DNA from: Polymorphobacter fuscus
GTDB lineage: Bacteria; Pseudomonadota; Alphaproteobacteria; Sphingomonadales; Sphingomonadaceae
Reading direction: 5' to 3'
Length of the DNA stretch: 64,000 nt
Assembly: GCF_011927825.1 (NCBI RefSeq)
Contig: NZ_JAATJI010000001.1
Coordinates: forward strand, 1,178,001 to 1,242,000
In this document: in pieces, positions 11,710 through 15,965 of the stretch
Layout of the letters: each line of letters opens with the position of its first letter
Position numbering within the stretch: the stretch's first letter is position 1
The notes under the pieces: model-generated
What the model was told of the DNA's origin: nothing
The model's input: only the letters and a program-made list of their open reading frames with translations
Database searches by the model: none
Program-made: the position numbers and the translations under genes

Positions 11710-13449
11710 ATGACGATGGCCGGGCCTGGACCCCAGAAAATCGACTTGAAGGATGTGCTTGCCTGGGTCGGACCGATCGTCGGTCCGGAGCGCAACTTCT
11801 TCTGGCTGGCGATCATCTATGGCCTGGGCATCAGCCTGCTGACGCTAGCGACGCCGGTTTCGGTGCAGATGCTGATCAACAGCATCGCCAACACGGCGCT
11901 GCCGACGCCGCTGTTCACCCTGTCGGCGGTGCTGCTGTTCCTGCTGCTGGTGTCGGGCATCCTGGGTGCCATGCGCACGTGGATGATGGAGCTGTTCCGC
12001 CGGCGCTTCATGGTCCGGCTGGTCGCCGATGTGACGGTGCGCACCATCAACGCCGCCAACCCCTTCTTTGCCGATACCCGCCGCATCGACGTCTTCAACC
12101 GCTATTTCGAGCTGATCAACGTCCAGAAAGCCGTGCCGTCGCTGTTGATCGGCGGGTTCACCATCATGCTGCAGGCAGCGGTCGGGCTGACGGTGACGTC
12201 CTTCTATCACCCGTTCTTTCTGGGCTTCAACGTCATCGTCGTCGTGCTGCTGTGGCTGATCTGGCGGATCTGGTCGCGCGGCGCGATGCGGTCGTCGATC
12301 GCGCTGAGCCATCAGAAATATGCAGCGGCGCACTGGCTGGAAAGCGTCGGCGCCTCCAACGGCTTCTACAAGTCCGCGCGCCATCTCGATTATGCCTATG
12401 CCCGGTCGGAACGTGTCAGCGCGGACTATGTCGAAGCGCACAAGAAGCATTTCAGCTATTATTTCCCGCAGAGCATCGCATTGGCGGTGCTGTATGCGCT
12501 GGCCAGCGCCGGGCTGCTGGCACTGGGCGGCTGGCTGGTCATCCAGGAACAATTGTCGATCGGGCAGCTGGTGGCAGCCGAGCTGATCCTGTCCGGGGTG
12601 TTCTACGGCATCTCGCAGCTCGCCTCGTACCTCGACGATTATTACGACCTCATCGCGGCGATCGAGGAGCTTTCGATGCTGTACGATATCCCGCAGGAAG
12701 CGCCGGCGGGACCGACGGTGGCGCTGCCGGCAGCAGGCTCCAGCCTGGCAATGGCGCATGTCCATTTCGACCAGAGCGCCGGGCCGGTGCGGTTCGACCT
12801 GTCCATCCCCGACGGCATGCGGCTGGTGGCGCAGGGCGCGCCCGGGCTGGAGCAGGCCTTTGCGACCCTGCTCAAGGGGCATCGGCGCCCCGACAAGGGC
12901 ATGATCACCATCGCCGGCGTCGATATCACTGCGCTCGACCCGCTCGAACTGCGCGGCGATGTCGAGGTTCTGGACCGGCCGGCGATCGTGGAAAGCACCA
13001 TCACCGAATATTTGCGGCTGTCGAACCCCGATGCCGATTCCGGCGCGATGATGCGGGCGCTCAAGCTCGTCGGGCTGGACGACCGCATCGCGGTGCTGCC
13101 CAACGCCATGCAGACCGTGCTGTCCTCCACCGGTTTCCCGCTCTCGCTCGGCAAGACCATGCAGTTGCGGCTGGCCGGCGCGATCCTGGCGCAGCCGCGC
13201 ATCCTGGTGCTGTCGCCGCTGTACGACATGGTCAGCCGCGACCGGTTGAAGGCGGTGTTCGCGCATTTTGCCGGATCGCCGACGACACTGATCTATTTCA
13301 CCAACCGGCCCGAGGACGTCACGCTCGACGGCTTCCTCTGGCTTGGCCGCGAAACCCAGGCGATCGTCCGCACCCGGGCCGAATTCGACGCACTGCGGAC
13401 GTCGGGCGGGCGCGAAGCGGTGGAGCGGGAGGTCGGCTATGGCAAATGA
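11710..13449 (+). CDS. ABC exporter-like protein with degenerate ATPase domain
   Basis: About 579 aa from ATG 11710. An ABC type-1 exporter transmembrane region (about residues 25-320) opens FFWLAIIYGLGISLLTLATPV, and five or six hydrophobic spans can be seen. A domain positioned and shaped like an ABC ATPase follows. Its motifs are missing: the Walker A slot reads QGAPGLEQAF (no GK[ST]), the Q-loop slot reads VLDRPAIV, the signature slot reads LSLGKTMQLRLAG, the Walker B slot reads ILVLSPLYDM (no DE), and the H-loop slot reads YFTNRPE. This looks like a pseudo-ATPase, not a sequencing error, because the frame is intact and the fold pattern (GVDITALDPLELRGD, ARAI-like helix) is kept. HlyD and TolC follow in overlap. 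Substrate and energy source are unknown. Confidence 0.85.
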   Translation: MTMAGPGPQKIDLKDVLAWVGPIVGPERNFFWLAIIYGLGISLLTLATPVSVQMLINSIANTALPTPLFTLSAVLLFLLLVSGILGAMRTWMMELFRRRFMVRLVADVTVRTINAANPFFADTRRIDVFNRYFELINVQKAVPSLLIGGFTIMLQAAVGLTVTSFYHPFFLGFNVIVVVLLWLIWRIWSRGAMRSSIALSHQKYAAAHWLESVGASNGFYKSARHLDYAYARSERVSADYVEAHKKHFSYYFPQSIALAVLYALASAGLLALGGWLVIQEQLSIGQLVAAELILSGVFYGISQLASYLDDYYDLIAAIEELSMLYDIPQEAPAGPTVALPAAGSSLAMAHVHFDQSAGPVRFDLSIPDGMRLVAQGAPGLEQAFATLLKGHRRPDKGMITIAGVDITALDPLELRGDVEVLDRPAIVESTITEYLRLSNPDADSGAMMRALKLVGLDDRIAVLPNAMQTVLSSTGFPLSLGKTMQLRLAGAILAQPRILVLSPLYDMVSRDRLKAVFAHFAGSPTTLIYFTNRPEDVTLDGFLWLGRETQAIVRTRAEFDALRTSGGREAVEREVGYGK

Positions 13450-14509
13450 TCGCGCGCATCTGGCGCATTTCCCGACGCTCGCCGGGATCAATCCGCCCGG
13501 CATTGCCCGCACCATCGGCGCGCTCATCGCCATCACCATCGCCACCATCCTCATTTTCGTGCTGACGGTGCCCTGGGTGCAGACGGCGGCGGGCAGCGGC
13601 AATGTCATCGCGCTCGACCCGCTCGACCGGCAGCAGAACATCACCGCGCTGGTCGGCGGCCGGATCGAAAAATGGTATGTGACCGACGGCGACGCCGTGA
13701 ACGCCGGCGACCCGATCGTGCGGATCGTCGACATCGACCCGCGCTACATCGAGCGGCTGCGCAACGAACGGGCACAGGTGGAGGTCGAAGTCGACGCCGC
13801 CCGCCAGGCCGCCCGCGTCGCCCAGCTCGACGTGGAACGCACCGGCACGCTGTTTCGCGAAGGCCTGGGATCGCGGCGCGACTGGGAACTGGCGCAGATC
13901 AAGGTTGCCGATTATCGCGCCAAGATCGCCCAGACCGTCGGCAGCCTCAACGCCATCGACACCAATATCCAGCGCCAGTCGAACCAGATGATCGTCGCGC
14001 CGCGCACCGGCCGCGTGCTGCGCGTGCGCGGCGACACCAGCAACGCCATCATCAAGCAGGGCGATGTCCTTGTCAGCTTCGTGCCGGAAGAAACCCGGCG
14101 CGTCGTCGAGCTGTACATGGACGGTCGCGACATTTCGCTGATCCGCGTCGGGCGCAAGGTGCGGCTGGAATTCGAAGGCTGGCCCGCCATCCAGTTTTCG
14201 GGCTGGCCGTCCATCGCCCGCGGTTTCTTCGACGGCCAGGTCATGTCGGTCGATACCGCCGCGTCCTCGAACGGGCTCTACCGGATCCTTGTCGAACCGA
14301 CCCCCGGCAAGCCGGCCTGGCCGAGCGAGCCCTCGGTGCGGCTCGGCGCCAGCGTGCGCGGCTGGGTGCTGATGGACACGGTCAAGGTGTGGTTCGAACT
14401 GTGGCGCCTGCTCAATAACTTCCCGCTGCAATATACGCCGCCACTGGCCGATGCGGCGACAACCGATGCAGCGGGGACGCCGCCGCCGGCGAAGGTCAGT
14501 GCCAAATAG
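13439..14509 (+). CDS. HlyD-family periplasmic adaptor (membrane fusion protein)
   Basis: Links the inner-membrane exporter to the outer-membrane channel (356 aa). There is a single transmembrane helix near residues 20-45 (IGALIAITIATILIFVLTV), then a barrel-sandwich half (GGRIEKWYVTDGDAVNAGDP), a coiled-coil hairpin of about 100 residues rich in Arg/Glu/Ala, the second half (MIVAPRTGRVLRVRGD) and a beta-barrel C-terminus. ATG 13439 has a GGGAGG site seven bases upstream and overlaps the ABC stop by 11 bases. The gene overlaps the following TolC gene by another 11 bases, so the three form one operon. Confidence 0.92.
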   Translation: MANDRAHLAHFPTLAGINPPGIARTIGALIAITIATILIFVLTVPWVQTAAGSGNVIALDPLDRQQNITALVGGRIEKWYVTDGDAVNAGDPIVRIVDIDPRYIERLRNERAQVEVEVDAARQAARVAQLDVERTGTLFREGLGSRRDWELAQIKVADYRAKIAQTVGSLNAIDTNIQRQSNQMIVAPRTGRVLRVRGDTSNAIIKQGDVLVSFVPEETRRVVELYMDGRDISLIRVGRKVRLEFEGWPAIQFSGWPSIARGFFDGQVMSVDTAASSNGLYRILVEPTPGKPAWPSEPSVRLGASVRGWVLMDTVKVWFELWRLLNNFPLQYTPPLADAATTDAAGTPPPAKVSAK

Positions 14510-15965
14510 GGCGATCACAGGGATGGCGCTGCTGGTGACGGCGCTGGCAACGGTTCCGGCAACGGAGGCGGTTGGCGCGCCGCGCCGTGCGCCCGTGGCG
14601 AGGGCGCCTGCTGCGGCACCGGTGCCGCGCGCGGCGCCGCTGCTGCTGCCGGAAGTTCTCGCGTCCGCCCGCTTCCACGCCCCCCAGGTGATCGAGGCGC
14701 TGGCGCGGGTGCGCGGTGCCGAAGGCCGGCTGCTCAGTGCCGAAGCCGCCTTCGACACGGTGTTCAGCGCCAATGCCGAAACCCGCGTTACCGGCTATTA
14801 TGACGGCCGCTACGCCGAAACCCAGGTCACCCAGCCGCTGTCGGACCGCGGCGGCTATGTCTATGGCGGCTATCGCGTTTCGGGCGGCCGCTTCCCCATC
14901 TATGAGGACGAACGCTATACCAACCAGCTGGGCGAACTGAAGGCCGGGGCGGTGCTGTCGCTGATGCGCGACCGGCGCATCGACGACCGCCGTTTTGCCC
15001 GCCTGCAGGCCGAAACCGATGTCGTTCTGGCCGATGTCGACCGCGTCGTCGTCGCCATCGGCGTGCAGGCGCGCGCCATCCAGGCCTATAACAACTGGGT
15101 GTTCGCCGGCCTGCGGCTGCGAGTCTACCAGGACCTGCTGCAGCTGGCGCAGGACCGGCAGGCGGGGTTCCGGCGGCAGGTCGAGGAAGGCGCGCGCCCG
15201 ACCATCCTGCTGACCGAGAATGAACAGAATATCCTGCGCCGCCAGTCGCTTGTGGTGCAGTCCGAACAGGCGCTGGGCGTCGCCGCGGCGGCGCTGTCGC
15301 TGTATCTGCGCGATGGCGACGGCACGCCGATCATCGTCGATCCCGCCCGCCTGCCCGATGCGCCGACGCCGCCGCTGCCGCTGCCGGCACAGCCGCAGGA
15401 ACTGGTGCTGCAGCGTCCCGACCTGCGCGCCATCGACATGCGGATGCAGCAGGCAACGCAGCGGCTGGCGCTCGACCGCAATGCCTTTCTGCCCAAGCTC
15501 GACGTCAAGGTGGAGACATCGAACGACTTCGGCCGCGTCGGCTATGGCGGCACATCGCGCAACGGTGTCGAATCGAAGGTCGGCGTCACCTTCACCCTGC
15601 CGCTGCAGCAGCGCGCCGCCCGCGGCCGGCTGGCGCAGACCAATGCGGAGATCGACGCCTTCCGGGCGCGCCGCCGCTTTCTGGAAGACCAGATCATGGC
15701 CGATATCGATGGCCTGGGCATTGCGGCGCGCAGCACCGCCCGGCTGGTCAGCCTTGCCGCCGACGAGGCCGACCGTGCCGCCGAGATGGCGGTGGCGGAA
15801 CGCCGGCGGTTCACCCTGGGCGCCAGCGACTATTTCCTCGTCAACGTGCGCGAGGAGGCGGCGGCCGATGCGCGCGTCCGCCGCCTCGACGCGGTGTTCC
15901 GCCAGGCCGTGGCGCATGCCGATCTTGCCGCCGCCACCGGGGATCTCGACCGGCTCGGCCTGTAA
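14499..15965 (+). CDS. TolC-family outer-membrane channel protein
   Basis: Outer-membrane efflux channel (488 aa) for the ABC-HlyD pair. GTG 14499 overlaps the HlyD stop by 11 bases and yields a signal peptide (basic N-region, then GMALLVTALATVPATEA). ATG 14523 is an alternative. The mature part has the two long helical repeat halves expected of the family, with AETDVVLADVDRVVVAIGVQ in the first and QRPDLRAIDMRMQQATQ in the second. It differs clearly from the second TolC protein at 22058. Confidence 0.9.
   Translation: MPNRAITGMALLVTALATVPATEAVGAPRRAPVARAPAAAPVPRAAPLLLPEVLASARFHAPQVIEALARVRGAEGRLLSAEAAFDTVFSANAETRVTGYYDGRYAETQVTQPLSDRGGYVYGGYRVSGGRFPIYEDERYTNQLGELKAGAVLSLMRDRRIDDRRFARLQAETDVVLADVDRVVVAIGVQARAIQAYNNWVFAGLRLRVYQDLLQLAQDRQAGFRRQVEEGARPTILLTENEQNILRRQSLVVQSEQALGVAAAALSLYLRDGDGTPIIVDPARLPDAPTPPLPLPAQPQELVLQRPDLRAIDMRMQQATQRLALDRNAFLPKLDVKVETSNDFGRVGYGGTSRNGVESKVGVTFTLPLQQRAARGRLAQTNAEIDAFRARRRFLEDQIMADIDGLGIAARSTARLVSLAADEADRAAEMAVAERRRFTLGASDYFLVNVREEAAADARVRRLDAVFRQAVAHADLAAATGDLDRLGL

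Follow-up and report, generated by a model that had tools for sequence, protein, structure and literature searches.

A conserved ABC-fold exporter family that has lost its ATPase motifs, encoded in a T1SS-like operon

One of the closest known systems to the pump described here is the T1SS composed of HlyB with HlyD and TolC. Exporters with degenerate nucleotide sites are well known in heterodimers; in the available text of PMC7756269, TM287/288 and TmrAB each keep one competent site with a partner. LmrA and MsbA stripped of their ATPase domains, leaving the membrane part alone (LmrA-MD and MsbA-MD), are laboratory truncations that, in the accessible parts of the reports, catalyse ion- or proton-coupled transport of ethidium, with E314 in TM6 of LmrA needed for transport by LmrA-MD (PMC6155054, PMC4979069). 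HlyD loci with a secondary SecA_DEAD protein likewise combine T1SS-like parts with the lack of a normal ABC ATPase; the available text of PMC4452313 reports no ABC homologue at these loci and proposes SecA_DEAD as the ATPase, whereas the operon analysed here has an ABC-fold membrane part. The question of secondary transport by an ABC exporter membrane domain has rested on the engineered truncations of LmrA and MsbA. The family reported here supplies natural versions, some of them without an ATPase domain, in a simple three-gene operon, which makes the question directly testable. Literature searches covering titles and the starts of abstracts, with most subscription journals outside their scope, returned no publication that we recognised as describing this family or pseudo-ATPase ABC exporters.

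The pump gene occupies positions 11710-13449 of the forward strand of the window (the whole stretch of 64,000 nucleotides that was analysed). Its frame is open, as originally predicted, and encodes 579 aa and a stop with no internal stop. AlphaFold2, run with a 55-row alignment, predicts a whole exporter fold with a mean pLDDT of 90.5 and a pTM of 0.82, and the nearest solved structures to the model are HlyB/D, TM287/288, PCAT1 and TmrAB. In the model the type-I exporter helices of the membrane domain (TMD) span residues about 13-325 (11746-12684), and the pseudo-ATPase domain covers residues about 345-566 (12742-13407). The predicted structure places the pump within the type-I exporter fold of the ABC transporter superfamily, a membrane domain followed by an ATPase-type fold, and agrees with the earlier description of a type-1 exporter membrane part with an ATPase-shaped C-terminus. 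Pfam scores lie below their cut-offs for both ABC_tran (19.6 bits, cut-off 25) and ABC_membrane (17.4 bits, cut-off 28). The top NCBIfam model is the HlyB-type TIGR01846, at 136.5 bits against a cut-off of 725.55. The pump differs from HlyB in being too short at its N-terminus to hold the extra N-terminal domain of HlyB, in having none of the ATPase motifs and in carrying a TM6 Glu instead of Asn.

The positions of the nucleotide motifs were located by aligning the pump to HlyB and to canonical exporters with intact motifs. The Walker A slot (12832-12861, forward strand as for the remaining slots) reads QGAPGLEQAF where the controls have the GxxGxGK[ST] P-loop, and the Q-loop slot (12967-12990) reads VLDRPAIV where they have Gln. 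The signature slot (13141-13179) holds LSLGKTMQLRLAG in place of LSGGQ or LSGGE, the Walker B slot (13201-13230) ILVLSPLYDM in place of DEATS or DEPTS endings, and the H-loop slot (13294-13314) YFTNRPE, with Asn in the position of the His found in the HlyB-type and MsbA rows. All five strings named in the original prediction fall in the correct slots, and the set of motifs of a functional ATPase (Walker A, LSGGQ, the Walker B Asp-Glu pair, the Q-loop Gln and the H-loop His) is absent from the pump.

The replaced motifs are shared by a large family. A search over 5.8 billion proteins, in which 8,000 were scored, gave 1,575 matches to the pump at E 1e-20 or better; the 120 matches listed are 60-100% identical to it and all carry the replaced motifs, with one (P0058) diverging from the Walker B slot onward. 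Among the genomes of relatives, 28 of 60 contain a match. Walker A is replaced in 28 of the 29 loci, that is in all that reach the slot, the remaining one being a fragment in which the later motifs are replaced. Members occur in 40 of 246 genomes in an order-wide search, at 378 bits or more with the next-best matches at 125 bits or less. Carriers are few in the class-wide search (3 of 385 genomes) and in a phylum-wide search with a TMD-only profile (11 of 398), and the distribution of the family is therefore patchy. One carrier is Novosphingobium aromaticivorans DSM 12444. A scan of named genomes with two search patterns, from which 80 of 510 confirmed relatives were kept, yielded loci from sphingomonads, Xanthomonas (14 loci), Caulobacter, Kordiimonas, Parvularcula and others; the motifs are missing in all 80.

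The family alignment comprises 343 entries (338 unique), of which 332 are longer than 480 aa and 329 remain once three cousins that keep the P-loop are excluded. These cousins are the only entries of the 343 with a P-loop in the Walker A slot, the few other matches to the pattern lying outside the slots. Not one of the 329 full-length relatives has the P-loop Lys, LSGGQ or the Asp-Glu pair in its slot. Lone catalytic letters do occur among them: four have an Asp at the Walker B Asp position, 20 a Glu at the Glu position, and at least six a His at the H-loop position. A new consensus occupies the old slots. D422 and R423 of the Q-loop slot are conserved in 288 and 316 of the 329 rows, D506 of the Walker B slot in 306, and the L and A of LKLA in the signature slot in 316-323.

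Selection was measured as Nei-Gojobori omega for 17 pairs, of which 14 were usable (two saturated pairs and one identical pair were dropped), with the start of the pseudo-ATPase region set at residue 345. Omega is 0.017-0.094 in the TMD and 0.013-0.242 in the ATPase region, where it exceeds the TMD value in 11 of the 14 pairs. Both domains are under purifying selection and the ATPase region is usually the less constrained. Across 55 diverse members there are 27 invariant columns, none of them beyond residue 312 and all within the membrane domain. The gene had been proposed to be maintained, not decayed, on the expectation of a clade that shares the replaced residues under purifying selection, and such a clade exists. 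Homologues that keep both GK[ST] and the Asp-Glu pair, which would have marked this copy alone as decayed, are absent from the family entries; the three cousins set apart above have the P-loop and the Walker B Asp without the catalytic Glu. Lone decay or a sequencing error in the pump is rejected on the shared replacements and on selection; a frame error likewise fails to account for the loss, given that the replaced residues recur in relatives. The finding is broader than first proposed: motif loss marks a whole conserved family of ABC-fold exporters, its members are encoded in a T1SS-like operon, and some branches have lost the domain outright. Its wide membership, its graded decay and an invariant TM6 glutamate could not be seen in the original prediction.

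The pump gene is followed by genes for an HlyD-type adaptor of 356 aa (13439-14509, forward strand; Pfam HlyD_3 and Biotin_lipoyl_2) and a TolC-type outer-membrane protein (14499-15965, forward strand; PF02321, OEP). The HlyD ATG at 13439 lies within the pump gene, whose stop ends at 13449, giving an overlap of 11 bases. HlyD and TolC also overlap by 11 bases, the HlyD stop ending at 14509, if TolC starts at GTG 14499, the start chosen here; an in-frame ATG upstream at 14451 is an alternative. Both predicted overlaps are thus real, the second given the GTG start. HlyD and TolC lie downstream of the pump gene in all 73 loci with room for them. The operon encodes together three parts that are typical of a T1SS, namely an ABC-type exporter, HlyD and TolC.

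Comparison of the family members reveals graded decay, as read from their sequences: cousins with a P-loop, a half-decayed basal branch, members with full loss of the motifs and members with no ATPase domain. The three cousins (L156, L190 and L191, from genomes of one family) are encoded in a three-gene operon of the same type. They retain GxxGSGKS and the Asp of Walker B, but not LSGGQ, the catalytic Glu or the H-loop His; the two that were scanned score 63.8 and 71.4 bits with Pfam ABC_tran. In the basal branch (L169/L187 and L188) the Lys has gone and Walker B reads LLLLDD. Proteins of this branch (L187:8436-10766, L188:7989-10208) are extended at the N-terminus by about 200 residues, in the same place as the extension of HlyB-type proteins.

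A search with the 333-aa form from locus L124 found seven TMD-only relatives of 320-386 aa (P0122, P0123, P0152, P0154, P0159, P0194 and P0203). L124, from genome G507 (93% complete), is the one TMD-only gene that was read in its locus. It ends ...GCATGACC, and its TGA lies inside the HlyD ATG in an ATGA overlap, with TolC following; there is therefore no room for an ATPase domain. The remaining TMD-only genes could include truncations of other origin. Among 29 genomes of the family of G507, no other has a TMD-only form. A TMD tree of 121 rows (111 family members and 10 canonical exporters, the P-loop cousins being outside the tree) separates the family from canonical exporters with a support of 0.915 and places L169 as basal. 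The best trees from FastTree and IQ-TREE both need three changes for domain loss. A single origin of all seven TMD-only forms is rejected (AU p 1.6e-7), and two losses, with six of the forms joined, are not rejected (AU p 0.29). A claim of three independent losses was dropped, since two also fit, and the claim is therefore of at least two losses, which is secure provided that P0203 is a true full gene. A structure model of the TMD-only form, built on a 7-row alignment, reaches a pLDDT of 72 and matches ABC exporters best, at TM 0.46 or less; it is too weak to carry any conclusion.

The motif GQLVAAEL in TM6 (residues 285-292; 12562-12585, forward strand) is among the invariant columns and contains E291 (codon 12580-12582), which lies near the outer start of the helix (284-325 in the AlphaFold2 model). 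This residue is Glu in 343 of 343 family entries, TMD-only forms included, and in 49 of 49 further entries, 47 identified by pattern and two by eye. One of the two patterns behind the 80 named-genome loci contains the Glu, so that E291 is partly pre-selected in that set; the protein and profile searches are independent of it. Of 14 canonical exporters, ten have Asn at this position, two Ser, one Val and one Ile, and E. coli MsbA has Phe. The 14 controls comprise 10 of 13 fetched relatives that passed a motif filter (L179, L180 and L182 were dropped) and all four canonical exporters of the window genome. E291 aligns with F288 of MsbA. Through the N346/H353 equivalence given in the accessible text on LmrA and MsbA (PMC6155054, PMC4979069), LmrA E314 would fall near MsbA 307, about 19 residues away; on this indirect comparison, E291 is probably not the counterpart of E314. 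The proposal that E291 replaced ATP is weakened, since the three P-loop-keeping cousins also possess it, and E291 therefore probably did not arise as a substitute for ATP.

On the preferred reading, to which we assign a probability of roughly one half, the operon encodes a T1SS-like tripartite exporter in which the ABC-fold subunit of the inner membrane has given up the use of its own ATPase and is perhaps coupled to ions. The exporter probably works without ATP hydrolysis of its own. The substrate would pass through a homodimer of the pump membrane domain that connects to HlyD and TolC. Its alternating-access cycle would be coupled to a gradient of ions, probably protons, with E291 as the candidate coupling site. 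The pseudo-ATPase domain would now support dimerisation in a structural or regulatory role, perhaps through a candidate contact of R423 with D506 where the catalytic centre used to be, and would be dispensable, so that it could be lost more than once. Ion coupling is favoured because of the analogy with LmrA-MD and MsbA-MD as described in the available text of PMC6155054 and PMC4979069. These resemble the TMD-only relatives in being exporter membrane domains without an ATPase domain, with an essential TM6 carboxylate in LmrA; they are engineered, whereas the loss of motifs in the pump family is natural, old and widespread, the pump gene sits in a tripartite operon and its carboxylate is probably at another position in TM6. 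More tentatively, a natural lineage of ABC exporters may have switched from primary to secondary active transport, losing hydrolysis, then ATP binding and then, in at least two branches, the whole domain, and drawing on an ion gradient via the TM6 glutamate. Several points count against ion-coupled export, among them the probable offset of E291 from E314 and the presence of E291 in the P-loop-keeping cousins. Most members conserve the pseudo-ATPase domain, which therefore has some role. In the accessible parts of the same reports, no current was evoked by ATP with LmrA-MD, and MsbA-MD fell short of the full-length protein in efficiency (PMC6155054, PMC4979069).

Two ways of powering the pump had been suggested, an active half-transporter elsewhere or some other drive. 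In the half-transporter scheme the pump would be the inert half of a heterodimer with an ATP-competent exporter, for example one of housekeeping MsbA or Atm1 type. Candidates exist, as the window genome has four canonical PF00664 exporters and other carrier genomes up to 11 PF00664 matches. G010 (99% complete) and G507, the latter alongside its TMD-only protein, still encode two detected canonical PF00664 exporters each. One in each is MsbA_rel (TIGR02204, over cut-off), 76% and 56% identical to L129 respectively, and the other is an orthologue of L130 of the window genome (78% and 45% identical), which we take to be an Atm1-like exporter. No dedicated partner is apparent in either genome. A search of the fetched flanks for ORFs with a canonical NBD (P-loop and SGG) found none in 63 of the 80 loci. 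The 17 others are the 14 Xanthomonas loci, all with a canonical exporter ORF upstream of the operon, and three with ORFs of 977-994 aa that are presumably UvrA. In Xanthomonas the one scanned (L073:3093-4910) is MsbA_rel over cut-off and is separated from the operon by a LysR gene. A dedicated ATPase beside the operon is disfavoured on these counts, with the 17 loci as exceptions. TM287/288 and TmrAB, as described in the available text of PMC7756269, show that degenerate heterodimers work with one competent site, whereas every motif has gone from the pump; in its composite sites one side would be missing Walker A and B and the opposite side LSGGQ, a worse state than that of the degenerate sites described there. 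The operon has its own HlyD and TolC and no second ABC gene, and the TMD-only relatives lack even an NBD-NBD interface. We consider pairing of this kind improbable. The suggestion of a different drive is favoured instead, because seven relatives have no ATPase domain and in one of them the operon is demonstrably intact, although its energy source is one that we infer.

It is rather unlikely that the pump is a scaffold or gate, opening a passive HlyD-TolC conduit or sensing a ligand and regulating another transporter. The former catalytic centre now conserves a different set of residues, as in pseudoenzymes, the coupling-region motif NRYFD(I/V/L) is kept even where the ATPase domain is missing, and inorganic carbon genes of DabAB or SbtA type adjoin the operon in 7 of 105 loci, all of which would suit such a role; however, the most conserved part is the whole membrane domain with its invariant TM6 carboxylate, which goes beyond what a scaffold needs. 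Still less probable is a cycle driven by binding energy, in which nucleotide or some other ligand would bind atypically to the pseudo-ATPase domain. Purifying selection on the domain would fit, as would the P-loop and Walker B Asp of L156, L190 and L191, which look like binding without hydrolysis, but the P-loop Lys has gone in the bulk of the family and the TMD-only relatives have no such domain. The motif loss also bears on annotation: the names 'ABC transporter ATP-binding protein' and 'putative ABC transport system ATP-binding protein' are attached to members for which normal use of ATP is very improbable.

The surroundings of the operon show some recurrent genes. A LysR gene lies upstream in 38 of the 75 loci with room, on the same strand in 32 and on the opposite strand in six (L073:5001-5912, L084:4980-5936 and L030:6137-7084, among others); its closest NCBIfam model is OxyR, below cut-off in the three that were scanned. 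Genes for the DabA/DabB inorganic carbon transporter adjoin the operon in six of 105 loci and a gene for an SbtA-type bicarbonate transporter in one more, located upstream in L062, L065, L082, L084, L109 and L189 and downstream in L190. The operons with DabA/DabB neighbours span several genera, including Sphingobium, Sphingomonas and Novosphingobium, and these inorganic carbon genes may hint at the function of the operon. Two genomes that are otherwise distant share a gene for a DUF6671 protein no more than 3 kb from the operon (L189:12102-12938 and L190:11349-12188).
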